Virus record (IMG/VR): IMGVR_UViG_3300014839_000031
Location: 1 to 29,849 of that record
Reading direction: 5' to 3' (one strand)
Length of the DNA: 29,849 nt
From: a virus
Below the pieces are notes generated by a model. The model saw only the letters and a program-made list of their open reading frames with translations. It did not search any database and was not told the DNA's origin. This document shows positions 2,035-8,684 of this stretch, piece after piece; the first letter of the stretch is position 1, and the number at the start of each line of letters is the position of its first letter. The translations under genes were made by a program, and so were the position numbers.

Positions 2035-2215
2035 CGATCCGAAAGTATTGACTCCTGCACAGGCGCTCGGTGTTGCGCTGTCGATTCCGATGAGCGAATT
2101 AGTCATGTCGGATTGTCAAGTAGTCATGTCGGATTGTCAAGCCTACGCAGTTGCGATGCTCGAACACTTGCACAAGATGGGATTTGATGTTGTTGCATTG
2201 GTGCAAGAGTGCTGA
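2021..2215 (+). CDS. Small hypothetical protein with internal 7-aa duplication
   Basis: This 64-aa protein starts inside the end of the small terminase gene and ends inside the start of the lysozyme gene, so all three are tightly packed. Its centre reads VMSDCQ V VMSDCQ A, the product of an exact 21-bp tandem duplication (2100-2120 and 2121-2141). The C-terminal part is an amphipathic helix (MLEHLHKMGFDVVALV). No family is recognised. It could be a small lysis-associated or terminase-associated protein, but nothing in the sequence decides. Confidence 0.5.
   Translation: MLTDSDPKVLTPAQALGVALSIPMSELVMSDCQVVMSDCQAYAVAMLEHLHKMGFDVVALVQEC
2100..2141 (+). repeat. Exact 21-bp tandem duplication
   Basis: TAGTCATGTCGGATTGTCAA plus a final G occurs twice head to tail (2100-2120, 2121-2141) with no mismatch. 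The length is a multiple of three, so the small gene at 2021 keeps its frame and gains seven residues. The absence of differences suggests a recent replication slippage event. Confidence 0.95.
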
Positions 2216-2823
2216 CAGACGACGAGTTTAATCAAGTATGCGACGTGCTCACGAAGCACGAAGGCTTGATTGCTTGGCTCTATTGTGACAGCAAAGGCTT
2301 TGTTACCGTCGGCGTCGGCGACAAGGTTTCGCAGGCGTCCGTGCTGACAATGCCTTTCGTGCATCTGCTTGACGGCAGCGCCGCAGATGCTGAGGAAAAG
2401 CAGACGGCCTACACCCGCGTGCTTGGACTTTTTGTGAAGGGCCTTACGGCTAGTGCGTACCGTGCTTGCTCTGACTTGCGCTTGCCCGCTGACTTTTGCA
2501 GGCGTCGGCTAAAGTACAGAGTAACAAGCGAGTTTGTGCCTGCTATTGAAAAGCAGTGCCCGCAGTTCGCAGACTTCCCGACGCCAGCGAAGCTAGTCCT
2601 TGTGGACATCGCATACAACACAGGAACAGCAGGCTTCGCTGCTTTTCAGCAGCTAATTGCAGACTGCAATGCGGGACATTTTGCAAATGCTGCTGAGCAA
2701 GTGCATACACAGCAAGACGGCGAAGATCCGCGCAATCCCGAAACGTGGGGTACACGTAATATGTGGCGGCACGATACAATGCGTGACGCTGCTTTGGCTG
2801 TTGGTTGGCGGGATCACGGCTGA
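2209..2823 (+). CDS. Endolysin, T4-type lysozyme (GH24)
   Basis: The 204-aa protein has the exact catalytic spacing of the T4 lysozyme family, E-8x-D-5x-T: E18, D27 and T33, within HEGLIAWLYCDSKGFVTVGVG. A second conserved block, LVDIAYNTG, lies at about residues 126-134, and a GTRNMWR segment near the C-terminus matches the family's late RR/WRxxE region. It would cleave the MurNAc-GlcNAc bond of peptidoglycan at lysis. No signal peptide or SAR anchor is visible, so a holin would be needed for access to the wall. The start is GTG 2209, overlapping the upstream stop. The following membrane protein starts on its stop (TGATG). Confidence 0.9.
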   Translation: MLTDDEFNQVCDVLTKHEGLIAWLYCDSKGFVTVGVGDKVSQASVLTMPFVHLLDGSAADAEEKQTAYTRVLGLFVKGLTASAYRACSDLRLPADFCRRRLKYRVTSEFVPAIEKQCPQFADFPTPAKLVLVDIAYNTGTAGFAAFQQLIADCNAGHFANAAEQVHTQQDGEDPRNPETWGTRNMWRHDTMRDAALAVGWRDHG

Positions 2824-3269
2824 TGGAAACAGCAATCAAAGAGCTTGCAAGCTCGGGCACACTCGGTGCCGTGCTTGCGTCCGTGTTCGCGCTGCTTGCC
2901 ATTGTGATCGGCGTGCTTGTTTGGGCGCTGAAGCGCTTTGTTGATTCGTCGATTGACGACAAAAAGGATTTCAGTGCGTTTATGCAAGCGCTGACGACAT
3001 CGCTTAATGGGCTTGGGCTGAACTTCGCAGCGACACGCGCGGACACGTTGGCCGAAGTGCGCGACATGGGCGACAAGATCAACAACGTGACGTGGGCTGC
3101 ACACGAGAAGATGGTAACTGTATTTCGTGACTCATTGACGGGCGCCGCAAACTCCATACGTGAAGGCAACAATAAGCTAGTGCAGGACTTAGAGACGCAG
3201 CGGTTGCGCGACGCAAATGCAGAACTGAGCCGCCCGCAAAATGTAGGAGACGGGACTGTGCGGCGGTGA
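2823..3269 (+). CDS. Single-span membrane protein, holin or spanin candidate
   Basis: I start at ATG 2823, which overlaps the lysozyme stop (TGATG), giving 148 aa; a longer frame from 2805 would run into the lysozyme gene. Residues about 14-36 form one strongly hydrophobic segment (GAVLASVFALLAIVIGVLVWAL) followed by KR. The remainder is a long hydrophilic, helical, partly coiled tail ending in a basic QRLRDANAELSRPQ stretch. The layout fits a single-span holin or an inner-membrane spanin subunit. Position directly after the lysozyme supports a lysis role. Which of the two it is cannot be decided from sequence. Confidence 0.6.
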   Translation: METAIKELASSGTLGAVLASVFALLAIVIGVLVWALKRFVDSSIDDKKDFSAFMQALTTSLNGLGLNFAATRADTLAEVRDMGDKINNVTWAAHEKMVTVFRDSLTGAANSIREGNNKLVQDLETQRLRDANAELSRPQNVGDGTVRR

Positions 3270-3580
3270 GTGATATTTCTCGCAAAACCGTTTGTGAGCC
3301 TAATACACAAGAAGGCTGCCAATTGCGTATCACATCCTTGGAAAAGGCTGTGAGCGACTTGAAGGAAAGTAACAGGCGCTTAGAGCAGAGCAATCGTGAA
3401 TTGAGCGACGACGTGCGCGCCGCAATGGCTGAATCAAAACGCCGTAGTGAATCGCTCGACAACTTGGCCAAGATACTATTGGCGAGCAATGAGGGTATTG
3501 AATTGTCGGGAGTAGTGCAGCCGTCAAGCACAACAGACACAACCAAGATCGTCAAACCACGGAAGGACACAAGCAAATGA
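3266..3580 (+). CDS. Coiled-coil protein in the lysis cassette
   Basis: The 104-aa product starts at GTG 3266, overlapping the upstream stop (GTGA), and ends overlapping the ATG of the next gene. Residues about 22-72 show a heptad-rich charged helix (LEKAVSDLKESNRRLEQSNR) that should form a coiled coil. Two cysteines (10 and 18) lie before it, and a Ser/Thr-rich tail ends in a basic stretch. It has no signal peptide or membrane span. It may act as a partner of the membrane proteins on either side, for example as a cytoplasmic regulator, but this is inference. No family is recognised. Confidence 0.6.
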   Translation: MSDISRKTVCEPNTQEGCQLRITSLEKAVSDLKESNRRLEQSNRELSDDVRAAMAESKRRSESLDNLAKILLASNEGIELSGVVQPSSTTDTTKIVKPRKDTSK

Positions 3581-4422
3581 TGCAAGACACGCGAGTTATC
3601 AGACAAGGTTTGCAAACACTGTTGGGGCTGGCAATGATTGTGCTGCCTGTTGCAATGGCGACGCCTTTTGATTGGCGCGCGTTGGTCAGCGCTACACTTG
3701 GCGGGATCATGACGTTGCTCACGAATCCGCGCCTGGTGCCTGGCCTTAAGGTTGTGATGCCTGATGCCGGTAGCTCAATTGCCGTGCCGCCTTCTGCGCG
3801 TGATGGCAGCAAAGGACATGCGACGCCTACCATTCTGCTTGTGCTTGTGCTTGCTTTTGCTGTGCTTGCTGTTAGTGCTGTGCTGCTGATTTCGTTGCCT
3901 GCTGACGCCGCCGAGACAGCAGTGATGCCGTCTCAGTCCACCCCGGTTGCCGCCACCGCAACCCCTGCGCATTGGGAGGGGCTCAGCTATGTCATCTCGG
4001 CTACGTGGACGTGCAGCCCCGTGGCCGCGCTGACCGGGTATCAGCTCAACGTTAAGACGACGATCTTTCAGCAGGGTGTGAGCCTCGGGGCCGGAGCTGG
4101 CTGCCGCTACACGGGCTGGTCTGTCCCACTATCGATCGAGGCCGTGGGAGGATTCGCGGCCAACAGCAACGCTCCGAACGCCGGCCAGGGAAATCTGATT
4201 TTCGTCGTGGCCGACAATTTTGGAGTTGGGCCTGGGATGCAAGTTTTCAAGGACCCGACGATCGGAAGCTACACCGAGCAGATGTTGGTTTCGTTCTTCC
4301 TCACAGGGTCTTGGGCATCTACCATTCATCAACTCAAGCAAGAGAAATCTAAGTCAGCGATGGATGGCGCCGGTTTTAGACTCAAGAGTGAGGCGCCGTC
4401 GCTGGAAAGTATTAGCCAATGA
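3577..4422 (+). CDS. Holin-like membrane protein with extra beta-rich C-terminal domain
   Basis: The 281-aa protein has hydrophobic segments at about 11-29, 33-49 and 84-107, an arrangement compatible with a holin. Residues 108-131 are a Pro/Ala/Thr-rich linker. Residues about 132-250 are quite different: alternating beta-type stretches rich in Gly and aromatic residues, two cysteines (146, 176), a VGGFAANSNAPN turn and a C-terminal F-L-T-G-S-W strand, which look like an outer-membrane or beta-sandwich domain. Codon use changes at about 3910-3960, within the linker, to a much more G+C-rich style. I infer a fusion made by recombination. It ends in ATGA overlap with the peptidase gene. I do not recognise the C-terminal family. 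Confidence 0.55.
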   Translation: MMQDTRVIRQGLQTLLGLAMIVLPVAMATPFDWRALVSATLGGIMTLLTNPRLVPGLKVVMPDAGSSIAVPPSARDGSKGHATPTILLVLVLAFAVLAVSAVLLISLPADAAETAVMPSQSTPVAATATPAHWEGLSYVISATWTCSPVAALTGYQLNVKTTIFQQGVSLGAGAGCRYTGWSVPLSIEAVGGFAANSNAPNAGQGNLIFVVADNFGVGPGMQVFKDPTIGSYTEQMLVSFFLTGSWASTIHQLKQEKSKSAMDGAGFRLKSEAPSLESISQ

Positions 4423-5234
4423 CCCGCGCACTCGGCTGGACGCCGCCAACCCTGGCCCAGCAGGTCCGCGCCCTGCGCAGATCTTCACCGGAAGCTGGGG
4501 ATAGCGTCCTGGCCGGCATTGATCCAGCGCCAGCCAGCGACATCAGTGGCCGGACCTGTGATCTCGACCAAGGTTCGATCGGCAGTTGCCAGTCGAACGC
4601 CACGGCGCAAGCGCTCTACGTGGCGATGGTGACTGCCGCCATGGCTGCATTCGTGCTGGCGCGATTGTGGCTCTACCGATCGCTTCGGTACATCGAGAAT
4701 ACCCTCGACCAGGACGCAGGCGGGAACATCGGCGACGCGTTCGCCATGCTGGCCGCGAAGGGTGTTCCGCCCGAGACGGCGTGGCCCTACGACGTGGCGA
4801 AGTTCAAAGACGACCCAGGGCCAGCGGTGGACCGACTCGCATACGATTCGCGTGGCACCGTGGGGCTGAACTACCATCCCATCAGCACGACCGGAGAGTC
4901 GCTTCTCGCCGATGTGGAGAGAGCCTTGACAGGCGGTTTCGCCGTGGTGTTTGGCTGCACGGTCAGCGAGGCATTCTGTTCAACGCAGCCGAGCGGAACC
5001 GTGCAGGCGCCTGGACCGAAGGATAAGATCGCAGGGAGACACGCGCTGACGGTAGTTGGGCACGACCGCGCGGGCCGGCGGCTCAAGATCAAGAACAGTT
5101 GGAGCGATTTGTGGGGCGACCCTGACGCCGGGCCGGGCTGCTTTTGGATGGATTATTCGTACTTCTCCGATTCGATGTACGGCGCGAGCGACATATGGAT
5201 CGTCACCGTACTGCCTGGAGGTATCGGACAATGA
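4419..5234 (+). CDS. Papain-like (C1 family) cysteine peptidase
   Basis: The 271-aa protein shows all four active-site elements of the papain family in order: oxyanion Gln51 and nucleophile Cys57 in DQGSIGSCQSNA, His208 in AGRHALTVVGHD, and Asn226 in IKNSWSDLWGD. The N-terminal R-A-L-G-W-x-P block resembles the start of other bacterial C1 peptidases that lack a propeptide. No signal peptide is seen; a moderately hydrophobic stretch sits at 66-84, within the expected helix after the catalytic Cys. It is G+C-rich (43 of 60 bases at 4741-4800) unlike the phage core. It is coupled by ATGA overlaps to the membrane protein before and the lipoprotein after. The target is unknown; wall lysis, host-protein cleavage or anti-defence are all possible. 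Confidence 0.85.
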   Translation: MTRALGWTPPTLAQQVRALRRSSPEAGDSVLAGIDPAPASDISGRTCDLDQGSIGSCQSNATAQALYVAMVTAAMAAFVLARLWLYRSLRYIENTLDQDAGGNIGDAFAMLAAKGVPPETAWPYDVAKFKDDPGPAVDRLAYDSRGTVGLNYHPISTTGESLLADVERALTGGFAVVFGCTVSEAFCSTQPSGTVQAPGPKDKIAGRHALTVVGHDRAGRRLKIKNSWSDLWGDPDAGPGCFWMDYSYFSDSMYGASDIWIVTVLPGGIGQ

Positions 5235-5485
5235 AGCGCATCACCCTGATTCTCGCCATCGCCCTCGCCGGCTGCGCGACGACCCAGTGCCCGACCAGCG
5301 CCACGCCGTGCCCAGCGCCGGCGGATTGCTCATCTGCTTGCCTCCATGGGAGCAACCTCGGCTGCGAGTGGGCGACACCGACGCCGGCCGGAGGCACGTG
5401 CTTGCAAGTGTGCGAGAACGCGACTGCGAGCGGCGTACCGTGGAACGTGATCGATCTGACGGCTGTTACATCCTGTCAGCCATGA
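5231..5485 (+). CDS. Cysteine-rich lipoprotein (84 aa)
   Basis: I start at ATG 5231, which overlaps the peptidase stop (ATGA); the open frame extends upstream to 5144 but the signal peptide begins at 5231. Residues 1-15 are a classic lipoprotein signal (KR, hydrophobic core, LAGC lipobox with Cys15). Ala follows the Cys, so outer-membrane sorting is expected by the E. coli rule. The mature part has eight further cysteines, suggesting disulfides in the periplasm, and a LGCEWATPTPAGGTC segment. It could be an outer spanin, an exclusion lipoprotein or a partner of the peptidase. Unlike typical Rz1 it is not dominated by proline. Confidence 0.75.
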   Translation: MKRITLILAIALAGCATTQCPTSATPCPAPADCSSACLHGSNLGCEWATPTPAGGTCLQVCENATASGVPWNVIDLTAVTSCQP

Positions 5486-5598
5486 TAGCAATTTGGCGCC
5501 GCTTCATTTGCTGGTTTCTCGGGCATCGTCAGCCCAAGTGCCCGCCTGTGTGGTGCTCAAGCTGTCGCATGCGCTGTCCGCACTGCGGAGGCTGCTAG
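5482..5598 (+). CDS. Tiny Cys-rich protein (38 aa)
   Basis: An ATG at 5482 overlaps the lipoprotein stop (ATGA) and opens a 38-aa frame ending at TAG 5596-5598. The first half is aromatic and basic (MIAIWRRFICWFLGHRQ); the second half has six cysteines in CxxxxCxxCxxxCxxCxxC spacing, resembling a zinc-binding knot. The coupling and conserved-looking spacing support a real gene despite its size. Its own GGAGG stretch (5587-5591) doubles as the Shine-Dalgarno site of the large terminase gene. Function is unknown. Confidence 0.6.
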   Translation: MIAIWRRFICWFLGHRQPKCPPVWCSSCRMRCPHCGGC

Positions 5599-5602
5599 AC
5601 TC

Positions 5603-7156
5603 GTGCAACAAGTAGTCGCTTGGAAGCCGCTTGGTACCGTTGCTGTGCAAGGCAGTGACGGTGCTTGGCGTCTGCAAATCAAGCGTGTGACAGGCCAACT
5701 GCTGGCCATTCAGTGCCAGTGCAACCACGTCTTCTTCCACGGTGCGCGCGGGCGAGGCTCGACCGAAGCGCAGTTGATGGCGTATCGTCGCTACGTCGGC
5801 GCAGGCTACGGCTCGCACTGGCGCGGCGTTGTGTTTGATCGCGAGTACAAGAACCTTGACGACTTGATAGCGAAGTCTCACCGCTTGTTCAACGGACGCG
5901 GCGACGGCGCGGAGTTTCTTGCAAGCCGTAGTGACTACAAATGGCGCTGGCCTACTGGCGAAGAACTGATGATTCGCCAAATCAAGAAGGAATCTGACTA
6001 CTGGCTGTATCACGGCCAAGAGTTTCCGTTTATCGGATGGAATGAGCTTCCAAAATATCCGACGCCTTCACTGTACGACGCAATGGGAAGCTGCAACCGT
6101 AGCGGCTTTACGTCAGCAGAGCACTACGCGTGCACAGGCTTGATTCTGCCTTCAATTCCGTTGCACACGTTTGCAACAGGCAACCCGTTTGGTCCTGGCC
6201 ATACTTGGGTGAAGAAGCGCTTTATTGATGCCGCGCCTGCGGGCAAAATCACGTACACGACAACGCTAGTCTTCAATCCGCAGACGCAACAGCGCGAGCC
6301 CGTTACGACGTCGCAGGTTGCGATCTTCGGTAGTTGGCGTGAGAATGAGCATCTAGATCCGCAGTACGTCGCCGGGCTCGAGCGCATGACTGACAAGGAT
6401 AAGCAAAAGGCTTGGCGCGACGGCAACTGGAATATCCTCAGCGGCGGCTCCTACGCTGTCGGTGATTTGTGGAAACCGTCTGTCCATGTGCGCCCGCGCT
6501 TCCGTGTTCCCGTCGGCTGTCGCGTGTTTCGCGCGCTCGATTGGGGCACTACTAAACCGTTTTCTGTCGGTTGGTGGATGCGCGCAAACGGTGAAGACAT
6601 CAAATTGCTTGACGGCTCTACTTGGTGCCCGCAGCCGGGATCGCTTGTGCGCATTGCCGAATGGTATGGTAGTGAAGATGTAGGAACCAACATCGGCTTG
6701 CGCATGACAGGCGGTGCAGCCGGGCGCGGGATTGCAGAGCGTGAAGCGGCGCTATTAGCAAATGGTTGGATCTCCGCGCCAGTGTGGGCCGGTCCCGCTG
6801 ACAACAACATTTTTAGCACAGGTGACAATCTAGCCGCTGACTCAATTGCGAAGCAAATGGAAGTGGAAGGCGTCACCTGGACACGCGCCAACAAGTCGCC
6901 GGGCTCGCGCAAGCTCGGCCTTGACCTGATCCGCACGCGTCTAGAGAATTCTTTGCGGGGTGAGGGGCCAAGCCTGTACTATACCGACAACTGCCGCGCG
7001 GCGATTGCGCTTAACCCAACACTTCCGCGCGACGAAGAAAAGACCGACGAAGTAGATAAAGAATGCGAAGATCACATGCACGACGAAGAACGCTATATGG
7101 TGCTTGATAGCGGCGATTCTGCGGCGACTTCAATCAACATCCAATTTGCGAGGTAG
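5603..7156 (+). CDS. terL: Terminase large subunit with atypical Walker motifs
   Basis: The 517-aa protein is the packaging motor ATPase/nuclease. The ATPase half has a Walker A position GARGRGST at 47-54, where the usual GKT lysine is Ser53, and a Walker B-like FPFIGWNEL at 141-149 with Asn147 where Asp is common and Glu148 kept. A conserved NRS block follows near 170. The nuclease half has D313 in LDWGTTKPF, GPADNN in the middle and the late EDHMHDEERY with D490 and D494, the RNase H-type metal set. The start is GTG 5603, 11 bases after GGAGG. It lies directly before the portal gene. The assignment is secure; how it binds ATP without the lysine is the open question. Confidence 0.92.
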   Translation: MQQVVAWKPLGTVAVQGSDGAWRLQIKRVTGQLLAIQCQCNHVFFHGARGRGSTEAQLMAYRRYVGAGYGSHWRGVVFDREYKNLDDLIAKSHRLFNGRGDGAEFLASRSDYKWRWPTGEELMIRQIKKESDYWLYHGQEFPFIGWNELPKYPTPSLYDAMGSCNRSGFTSAEHYACTGLILPSIPLHTFATGNPFGPGHTWVKKRFIDAAPAGKITYTTTLVFNPQTQQREPVTTSQVAIFGSWRENEHLDPQYVAGLERMTDKDKQKAWRDGNWNILSGGSYAVGDLWKPSVHVRPRFRVPVGCRVFRALDWGTTKPFSVGWWMRANGEDIKLLDGSTWCPQPGSLVRIAEWYGSEDVGTNIGLRMTGGAAGRGIAEREAALLANGWISAPVWAGPADNNIFSTGDNLAADSIAKQMEVEGVTWTRANKSPGSRKLGLDLIRTRLENSLRGEGPSLYYTDNCRAAIALNPTLPRDEEKTDEVDKECEDHMHDEERYMVLDSGDSAATSINIQFAR

Positions 7157-7160
7157 ACTG

Positions 7161-8684
7161 ATGGCAACAGCCCCGATTGTGCAGAATCCAGATCAGCCGA
7201 CGCCTAATGTCGCGTATGTGTTGCCAGAAGTGCAGGCGAAGGCGCCGCAGTGGCAAATAATCCGTGACTGTATTGCAGGGCAGGACGCTATCAAGGCGGC
7301 GACAACTACCTATCTGCCGATGCCGAACGCTGACGACCAAAGCGAGCAAAATCGCGCACGGTATGTTTCCTATTTGGAGCGCGCTGTTTTTTACGGTGTG
7401 ACAGGGCGCACGCACAAGGGCCTAGTAAGCCTCGCTTTTGCCGAGGAGCCTACAGTTGAGCTTGCACCGCAGTTGCAGGGCTTGCTCACAAATGTTGATG
7501 GCGCGGGTATCAGCCTTGAACAGCAGGCACGTGCAACGCTCGGCGAAGTTGCAGCGACAGGGCGCTGCGGTCTGCTGGTTGACTATCCGCCTGTAGTTAC
7601 GCCCGTTAGTAAAGCGCAATTGGCTACATTCGGATTGCAGCCAACAATCAGAAGCTATCAGCCGCAAGACATCATCAATTGGCGCGTCGCTTTTATCGGC
7701 GGCTTGCGTGTGCTCACGCTTGTTGTTTTGCAAGAGGCTGTTGCTGTTCCAACAGATCCTTTTATCTCGCAGATTGTGAAGCAGTGGCGCGTGCTTCGCT
7801 TGGTTCCCAATGAAGCGGGCGTGTTTCGCTACGTCGTGACTGTTTACCAGATGCCCACAAATGCAAGCCAGATGGGATACACGGCAATTACTGCGCTCGA
7901 ACAGTATGAACCTCTGGACTTTCAAGGTCGACCGTGGTCATTCATTCCATTTCAAGCGCTCGGTGCCGAGAACAACGAAATTACAATTGATCCCGCGCCA
8001 CTGTTGGATCTTGCTAACATAAATATTGCGCACTATCGCAATAGTGCCGACTACGAAGAATCAGTATTTATGTGTGGACAGTCAACGCCAACACTTACCG
8101 GCATGACAAAGGATTGGTGGGAAAACGTACTGAACAAGACTGTGCGGCTCGGATCGCGATCTGCTGTGGCGTTGCCTGTCGGCGCTGCTTTGCAACTCAT
8201 ACAGGCGGCGCCTAACGGACTCGTGCGCGAGGCGATGCAGGACAAAGAAAGGCAGATGGTTGCACTCGGTGCGCGACTCATTCAGACGAACACCGTACAG
8301 CGCACAGCAACCGAGGCAAAGATTGAGTCTGCAAGTGAGCTATCAGTGCTTAGCACTTGCGCGAACAACGTGGCCGCAGGCTACACGAAGGCGCTACAAT
8401 GGGCAGGCATGTTTGCAGGCACAAAGCAGGAAAGCACGTTCACGATGCATCCCAACGCGGATCTTGATAGCCTGTCTATCGAAGAACGCGCGCAACTCAT
8501 GGCTGAATTGCAAGACGGAGGTATCTCGTGGACCGAGTATCGCGAGCATTTGCACGCATCGGGCGTTGCCACGCAAGATGATGCCAAAGCGAAGGCAGAG
8601 ATCGCAGCGGACAAGCCGAAGCCGCCTGTTGCGCCGCCTGTTCCACCGCAAGTTACCGATTCCATCATAGGCAAAGTGAAGTAA
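7161..8684 (+). CDS. Portal protein (DUF4055 type)
   Basis: I choose ATG 7161, just after the terminase stop, giving 507 aa; an in-frame ATG at 7104 lies inside the terminase gene. The N-terminal region (SYLERAVFYGVTGRTHKGL near 75-93, NVDGAGISLEQQA, GRCGLLVDYPP) and the late block with KERQMVALGARLI match the DUF4055 portal family. Twelve copies should form the DNA gate at one capsid vertex and bind the terminase and neck. The C-terminus is proline-rich (PKPPVAPPVPPQ). The next gene, the scaffold, follows after a strong Shine-Dalgarno. Order terminase-portal-scaffold-capsid is standard. Confidence 0.88.
   Translation: MATAPIVQNPDQPTPNVAYVLPEVQAKAPQWQIIRDCIAGQDAIKAATTTYLPMPNADDQSEQNRARYVSYLERAVFYGVTGRTHKGLVSLAFAEEPTVELAPQLQGLLTNVDGAGISLEQQARATLGEVAATGRCGLLVDYPPVVTPVSKAQLATFGLQPTIRSYQPQDIINWRVAFIGGLRVLTLVVLQEAVAVPTDPFISQIVKQWRVLRLVPNEAGVFRYVVTVYQMPTNASQMGYTAITALEQYEPLDFQGRPWSFIPFQALGAENNEITIDPAPLLDLANINIAHYRNSADYEESVFMCGQSTPTLTGMTKDWWENVLNKTVRLGSRSAVALPVGAALQLIQAAPNGLVREAMQDKERQMVALGARLIQTNTVQRTATEAKIESASELSVLSTCANNVAAGYTKALQWAGMFAGTKQESTFTMHPNADLDSLSIEERAQLMAELQDGGISWTEYREHLHASGVATQDDAKAKAEIAADKPKPPVAPPVPPQVTDSIIGKVK

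Follow-up and report, generated by a model that had tools for sequence, protein, structure and literature searches.

A transferable phage cassette joining a papain-family peptidase, a Cys-rich lipoprotein and a holin-linked exported domain, with a possible role in lysis

In the lysis region of the window, the whole stretch of DNA analysed here (a complete 29,849-nucleotide, or 29.8-kb, IMG/VR record classed as a fragment), we found genes for a leaderless papain-family (C1) peptidase, a Cys-rich lipoprotein and an exported domain, termed A, that together seem to form a transferable cassette common to otherwise different phages and, as a set, apparently undescribed. We tentatively favour, with slightly less than even confidence, its being an accessory lysis module passed between phages, in which a holin-freed peptidase would act with a lipoprotein partner and an A barrel.

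By its sequence, the window appears to come from a tailed phage, with packaging genes distantly akin to those of Pseudoxanthomonas phage PW916 (Mesyanzhinovviridae), the two large terminases (TerL) being about 50% identical. Eleven further records are close backbone relatives, with large terminases 79–94% identical to that of the window. The gene order around the cassette is given in Table 1. The endolysin is context, lying outside the mobile cassette, and the earlier description of this flank as lysis genes was right for it. Of the two context proteins that follow, the one-helix protein has similar-looking counterparts, judged by eye, at the same position in contigs L093, L098 and L177, and the coiled-coil protein is 52% identical to L002 3503–3694 (tblastn, E 9e-17). 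The TerL P-loop region (5747–5780) of the window and its close relatives L009–L019 has the sequence GARGRGSTE, in which the lysine usual for Walker A is missing.

Table 1. Features of the cassette region and its flanks (positions in the window)
Feature	Position	Strand	Basis or remark
Small terminase	starts 1531
Endolysin, T4-lysozyme-like, without signal peptide	2209..2823	+	PF00959, E 4e-5, above cut-off; phrog_7 endolysin
One-helix membrane protein with coiled coil, lysis-region context	2847..3269	+	hydrophobic segment 7–25, mean hydropathy 2.82
Coiled-coil protein without membrane helix, context	3266..3580	+	no hydrophobic segment
Fusion ORF	3577..4422		281 residues
Holin-like N-terminal part of fusion ORF, two predicted helices	3577..3834	+	stands alone in L019 (113 aa)
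Internal signal-peptide-like segment of fusion ORF, ending ...LISLPADA(A)	3835..3912	+	hydrophobicity, AxA motif
Domain A, exported, beta-rich	3913..4419 (stop codon 4420–4422)	+	predicted small outer-membrane barrel
C1 (papain-family, xylellain-like) peptidase, leaderless	4419..5234	+	PF00112, xylellain 3OIS profile
Catalytic codons of the peptidase	Cys57 4587–4589; His208 5040–5042; Asn226 5094–5096	+	codons checked
Cys-rich lipoprotein	5231..5485	+	lipobox LAGC (Cys15 codon 5273–5275), Ala at +2, proline-rich spacer
38-aa Cys-rich micro-ORF	5482..5598	+	overlaps lipoprotein stop by ATGA; reading frame checked
Large terminase	starts 5603

The peptidase, which an earlier note on this DNA had described as complete, scores 23.9 bits against PF00112 (curated cut-off 20.7) with its catalytic residues in place, and a five-sequence profile matches xylellain, a short bacterial C1A enzyme (PDB 3OIS), over 250 residues at E 3e-77. 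It carries the C1A active-site set Q51, C57, H208 and N226, which predicts proteolysis; among ten aligned peptidases from cassettes, Cys and His are invariant (10/10) and Asn is kept in 9/10, with Gly in L098. The likeness to xylellain extends over the whole length and includes the short form without a long papain propeptide, whereas the phage clade is set apart by a distinctive motif at the N-terminus (ALR..PEAGDS), one further conserved cysteine (FCS) and a fixed lipoprotein partner. Xylellain-type genes have been reported in myo- and siphoviruses (PMC10380794). We detected no hydrophobic segment at the N-terminus of the window's enzyme, which should therefore remain cytoplasmic for as long as the inner membrane is intact.

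The genes travel together, which the earlier note had named as the point on which its idea of a single system could fail. We searched viral contigs reciprocally, taking in turn the peptidase, the lipoprotein and A as the seed, and recovered the peptidase–lipoprotein pair from 11 contigs (the window, L002, L010, L093, L094, L096, L097, L098, L176, L177 and L186). Starting from the peptidase, a seven-sequence alignment confirmed 395 relatives; among the best 80 of these 395, the lipoprotein profile matched only beside the closest peptidases (in the window, L002, L010, L093, L094, L096, L097 and L098). Starting from the lipoprotein, all nine loci recovered had an adjoining peptidase, with L176 and L177 as new contigs, and starting from A, four of six loci contained the pair (L186 being new) and the remaining two, in L009 and L018, had A only. 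The cassette was single-copy in each contig tested (10/10). Three coupled coding segments had been claimed, and this is what we observed: A and the peptidase, and the peptidase and the lipoprotein, overlap by ATGA, as do the lipoprotein and the 38-aa ORF, and the peptidase and lipoprotein are ATGA-coupled in most loci. The micro-ORF has a 56% identical counterpart at the same place in L010 and is a possible fourth cassette member. The proposal that three genes form one unit held for the peptidase and lipoprotein, always paired in cassettes; A is looser, lying directly upstream of the pair in 10 of the 11 contigs, in most cases following a holin-like protein or fused to one, but absent from L096 and without the pair in L009 and L018. 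In L096, a tyrosine-phosphatase-like protein (4556–5326, PF13350) with a lipobox-like N-terminus lies directly upstream of the peptidase, in A's usual slot.

In a peptidase tree of 78 sequences, which included the ten paired members known at that point, all ten fell on one side of a branch and the 68 solo sequences on the other (SH-aLRT 99). The roughly 68 unpaired phage relatives in this set lack the lipoprotein, and about 50,700 records of isolated phages yielded only three distant peptidases, none with the lipoprotein. Around the solo peptidases, no lysis families appeared among the top 25 neighbours; 84 sampled neighbouring ORFs, picked with a crude gene-calling procedure, included terminases, HNH nucleases, RNA ligases and others. 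A general lysis role for all phage C1 peptidases is consequently unsupported, the solo copies sitting in varied non-lysis neighbourhoods. These neighbourhoods, and the missing signal peptide, fit an enzyme with an intracellular target, be it a host or a defence protein, its place among lysis genes being incidental; such a cytoplasmic effector is distinctly improbable in our judgement, as it leaves the strict link to an exported lipoprotein and A unexplained and the paired peptidases form a clade apart from the solo ones.

Several observations bear on whether the cassette is kept as a functional set. All three parts are under purifying selection between the window and L002, with dN/dS of 0.12 for A, 0.17 for the peptidase and 0.20 for the lipoprotein. 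Synonymous divergence in the same comparison is unequal (0.36 for the peptidase, 1.08 for A and 1.18 for the lipoprotein), suggesting that cassette parts also recombine singly; such piecewise exchange is expected of a functional set, with differences in codon constraint as a possible alternative. This gene-level mosaicism, with the peptidase far below the other two, could also be taken, along with the loss of the catalytic Asn from the L098 peptidase, as a sign of chance neighbours or decaying foreign DNA without joint function. We consider that highly improbable, given a cassette intact in 11 contigs, in the same order, with purifying selection and reciprocal co-occurrence. In L093, an HNH endonuclease gene (3449–3904) separates the peptidase from the lipoprotein, which is what a homing element entering a pair that is elsewhere linked should produce; a downstream ORF of this contig (4249–5139), without a Pfam match, has an HFVQDCLVPHH motif that recalls phospholipase C-type enzymes. 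In L176, a single ORF (5932–7299) joins a putative zinc metallopeptidase (PF15887) to the C-terminal domain of an Fe/Mn superoxide dismutase (PF02777).

In composition and in its borders, the region behaves as the foreign G+C-rich insert it had been taken for. Positions 3950–5485 have 62.5% G+C versus 56.2% for the rest of the window, and the counts first reported (43/60 at 4741–4800, 30/60 at 7741–7800) were reproduced exactly. The shift survived a sliding-window test that had been named beforehand as a possible refutation: the richest 1536-bp interval of the record starts at about 4378, and away from the insert the maximum is 60.3%. Among segments of 1.5 kb, the richest begins at position 3901; permutation gave p = 0.0004 for 100-bp bins and p = 0.026 for 500-bp blocks. 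Aligned with the backbone relative L018, the window loses DNA homology at 3791 and regains it at 5614, and it matches L002 at 83–85% identity over 3951–4316 and 4433–5448. As L002 has no match to the window's large terminase, it represents a different backbone, and these borders indicate that the insert is a block with its closest relative in another phage. The cassette is conspicuous against backbones of 55–56% G+C (the window and L010) and blends in within phages of 61–64% G+C, for which the simplest account, judging from the sequences, is horizontal movement from a G+C-richer phage.

The acceptor site itself varies among close relatives. In L011–L014 the endolysin is followed directly by the terminase, in L019 there is only the short holin-like protein, L018/L009 have the holin and A with a small lipoprotein of another kind, and the set is complete in L010, so that the peptidase is present in only one of the 11 close backbone relatives. 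Since these relatives manage without it, the cassette is accessory and dispensable, and it may matter only for some hosts or conditions. The different lipoprotein of L018 (58 aa, 5543–5719), which follows A where the peptidase is absent, is a candidate alternative partner or o-spanin.

The lipoprotein, called Cys-rich from the outset, has a lipobox-type Cys and six further cysteines that are invariant in an alignment of ten members. Four of the six lie in two CX3C motifs, for which a twin-CX3C helical hairpin is predicted; the structural model is helical, at low confidence (pLDDT 65), and fits a hairpin tied by disulfides. In most aligned members Ala occupies position +2, which by the E. coli rule directs sorting to the outer membrane, and the spacer is of the CP/PCPKP type. 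The gene is the only lipobox ORF in the window with a plausible strand and position. No named family matched it beyond the signal peptide: a match to Cor (phrog_1119) covers residues 1–22, that is, the signal peptide only (E 0.045), spanin families of PHROGs give weak matches (best E 0.008), and one phage lipoprotein in a viral fold library resembles it (probability 0.99, E 0.03). As to a bacterial origin of the cassette, scans of 84,980 genomes confirmed no relative of A or the lipoprotein; these used short exact motifs, by which distant relatives would be missed.

Such a lipoprotein could be an envelope-tethered inhibitor that guards against a toxin, the peptidase being freed at lysis to attack neighbouring cells, debris or competing phages. 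The strict pairing, the ATGA coupling in most loci and the conservation of twin CX3C in all aligned lipoproteins would suit this, and twin-CX3C helical hairpins include plant protease inhibitors. Nevertheless, we regard this explanation as unlikely: no immunity or secretion gene was seen, the peptidase has no receptor-binding part, and the likeness to inhibitors lies in the motif, with neither a sequence nor a fold match.

What had been listed as a separate gene for a membrane-associated domain proved to be the C-terminal part of the fusion ORF; an exported domain does exist there. The N-terminal part, like its 113-aa version in L019, is small, has at least one predicted membrane helix and lies in the lysis region, as a holin would, and that of the window has no holin-family match. 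L094 and L177 have a different protein in this slot, with weak matches to PHROG holin families, and its free homologue in L176 matches holin phrog_36209 at E 7e-7. The strongest hydrophobic segment of the fusion ORF (residues 87–105, mean 3.23) precedes A, and in fused forms this hydrophobic stretch and the AxA motif make cleavage by signal peptidase I, ahead of A, likely on sequence grounds. A is fused to the two-helix holin-like segment in the window, L010 and L018/L009 and to the other holin type in L094 and L177; in L002, L176, L093, L097, L098 and L186 it is encoded separately and carries a Sec-like signal peptide of its own. Since two different holin types are fused to A in separate contigs, the fusion arose more than once, and the in-frame arrangement of holin, signal and A in L018/L009, L010, L094 and L177 rules out a frameshift or chimera as the source of the ORF in the window. 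Just upstream of the fusion in L094 is a gene (2640–3851) for an RRXRR-domain protein (PF14239, E 9e-37) resembling IscB-type nucleases.

The A proteins are very diverse, with about 20% identity at the extremes, and have no sequence match in Pfam or PHROGs. They nonetheless form one family, as a profile from one subgroup retrieved the other as its only significant matches (window E 0.001, L094 E 6e-6), and the two subgroup profiles align with probability 90 and E 2e-6. In an AlphaFold model built from ten sequences, with a mean pLDDT of 78, six long antiparallel strands (pLDDT near 89) form a meander. The best viral fold match of this model has E 1e-4, and among weaker matches outer-membrane barrels recur (PagL, OmpA and Ail, all with E above 0.1 against the PDB), from which we read A as a predicted small outer-membrane barrel. 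The match to PagL (probability 0.97 but E 0.17) is too weak for assignment as a PagL-like lipid A deacylase.

A barrel and a small lipoprotein in a phage accessory slot recall Lom, Bor and Cor, and phage lambda's Lom and Bor set the precedent for this combination. On that model, A and the lipoprotein would alter the host surface, through superinfection exclusion or Lom/Bor-like conversion, and the peptidase would process a receptor or one of these two proteins. The accessory and mobile nature of the cassette agrees with such a moron, which we nevertheless judge quite unlikely. Leaderless, the peptidase cannot reach the surface before lysis; the Cor match is confined to the signal peptide, PADLOC has no match, and the cassette contains no internal promoter-like site (Rfam and simple promoter and terminator scans of the region gave nothing notable). 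Nor does A's release need the peptidase, the fusion occurring without it in L018/L009 and free A with it in L002, L176 and L186, which also discounts the enzyme as processor of the holin–A fusion. A further difference from Lom, Bor and Cor is that A lacks a Pfam or PHROG match and is linked to a holin and a peptidase.

Among the functions first proposed (lysis, superinfection exclusion and defence), only lysis found support in context. In cassette loci, a holin or holin-like gene is directly upstream of A or fused to it, and peptidoglycan hydrolases are encoded near the cassette in at least seven contigs (the window, L002, L010, L094, L177, L098 and L186); no endolysin was found near it in L093, L096, L097 or L176. 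None of the three cassette proteins had a PADLOC match, by which we rejected a defence system, and a Cor-type superinfection exclusion lipoprotein was set aside since homology stops at the signal peptide; a role in either process is possible. Against the lysis module, position beside lysis genes is not function, and lysis regions also collect morons, lambda bor being one gene that lies in such a region.

If the cassette is a lysis module, we infer that it would act in the following way. Late in infection, the holin would open the inner membrane. Until then, the peptidase, having no export signal, would wait in the cytoplasm like an endolysin and would reach the periplasm only through the holin lesion; to our knowledge, leaderless hydrolases encoded beside a holin have been endolysin-like and holin-released in all studied cases. 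The freed enzyme would cleave those envelope proteins by which the cell is still kept intact. Its dedicated partner, whether as anchor, activator or inhibitor, would be the lipoprotein, already exported by then and fixed to the outer membrane. A, supplied from a holin–A polyprotein or as a separate secreted protein, would insert in the outer membrane as a small barrel, where it might help weaken that membrane or position the peptidase–lipoprotein pair.

A more specific version would have the cassette replace spanins in a protease-based outer-membrane lysis step: the holin-released peptidase, docked on the twin-CX3C lipoprotein, would sever the protein links between outer membrane and cell wall, the holin-linked barrel having been delivered beforehand as a third component. 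We hold this version to be conceivable but doubtful. Like Rz1 of the Rz/Rz1 spanins, the cassette has in the lysis region what its sequence predicts to be a small proline-rich lipoprotein of outer-membrane type, possibly serving an outer-membrane lysis step. However, it has no recognisable type II inner-membrane coiled-coil partner, nested or adjoining (the peptidase precedes the lipoprotein, which has no neighbouring inner-membrane protein with a coiled coil in the periplasm), and its lipoprotein has a twin-CX3C domain with six Cys and is partnered by an enzyme. We recognised no spanin pair of the classic kind in the window, spanins being hard to detect and the record a fragment.

The statement that no system of this composition had been described agreed with our searches, in that the literature and family libraries searched contained no description of the peptidase–lipoprotein pair, A or the holin–A fusions. 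The nearest case is the TA-TA transposable prophage of Leptospira, in which a holin/antiholin pair lies beside a predicted cysteine protease proposed as an endolysin; the likeness is one of description, and the available extract of that report mentions no Cys-rich lipoprotein or A (PMC8705779).

If the lysis reading is true, a papain-type protease with a dedicated lipoprotein would offer an additional, enzymatic means of passing the outer membrane, whether through it or around it, and the repeated fusion of different holins to an exported barrel would constitute a new link between inner and outer membranes. Lysis of Gram-negative hosts is usually told as a sequence of holin, endolysin and spanin. 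The cassette is short and self-contained, and natural pairs with and without it exist in near-identical backbones, making its effect directly testable. This would give a function by context to one clade among the many phage C1 peptidases now called hypothetical.
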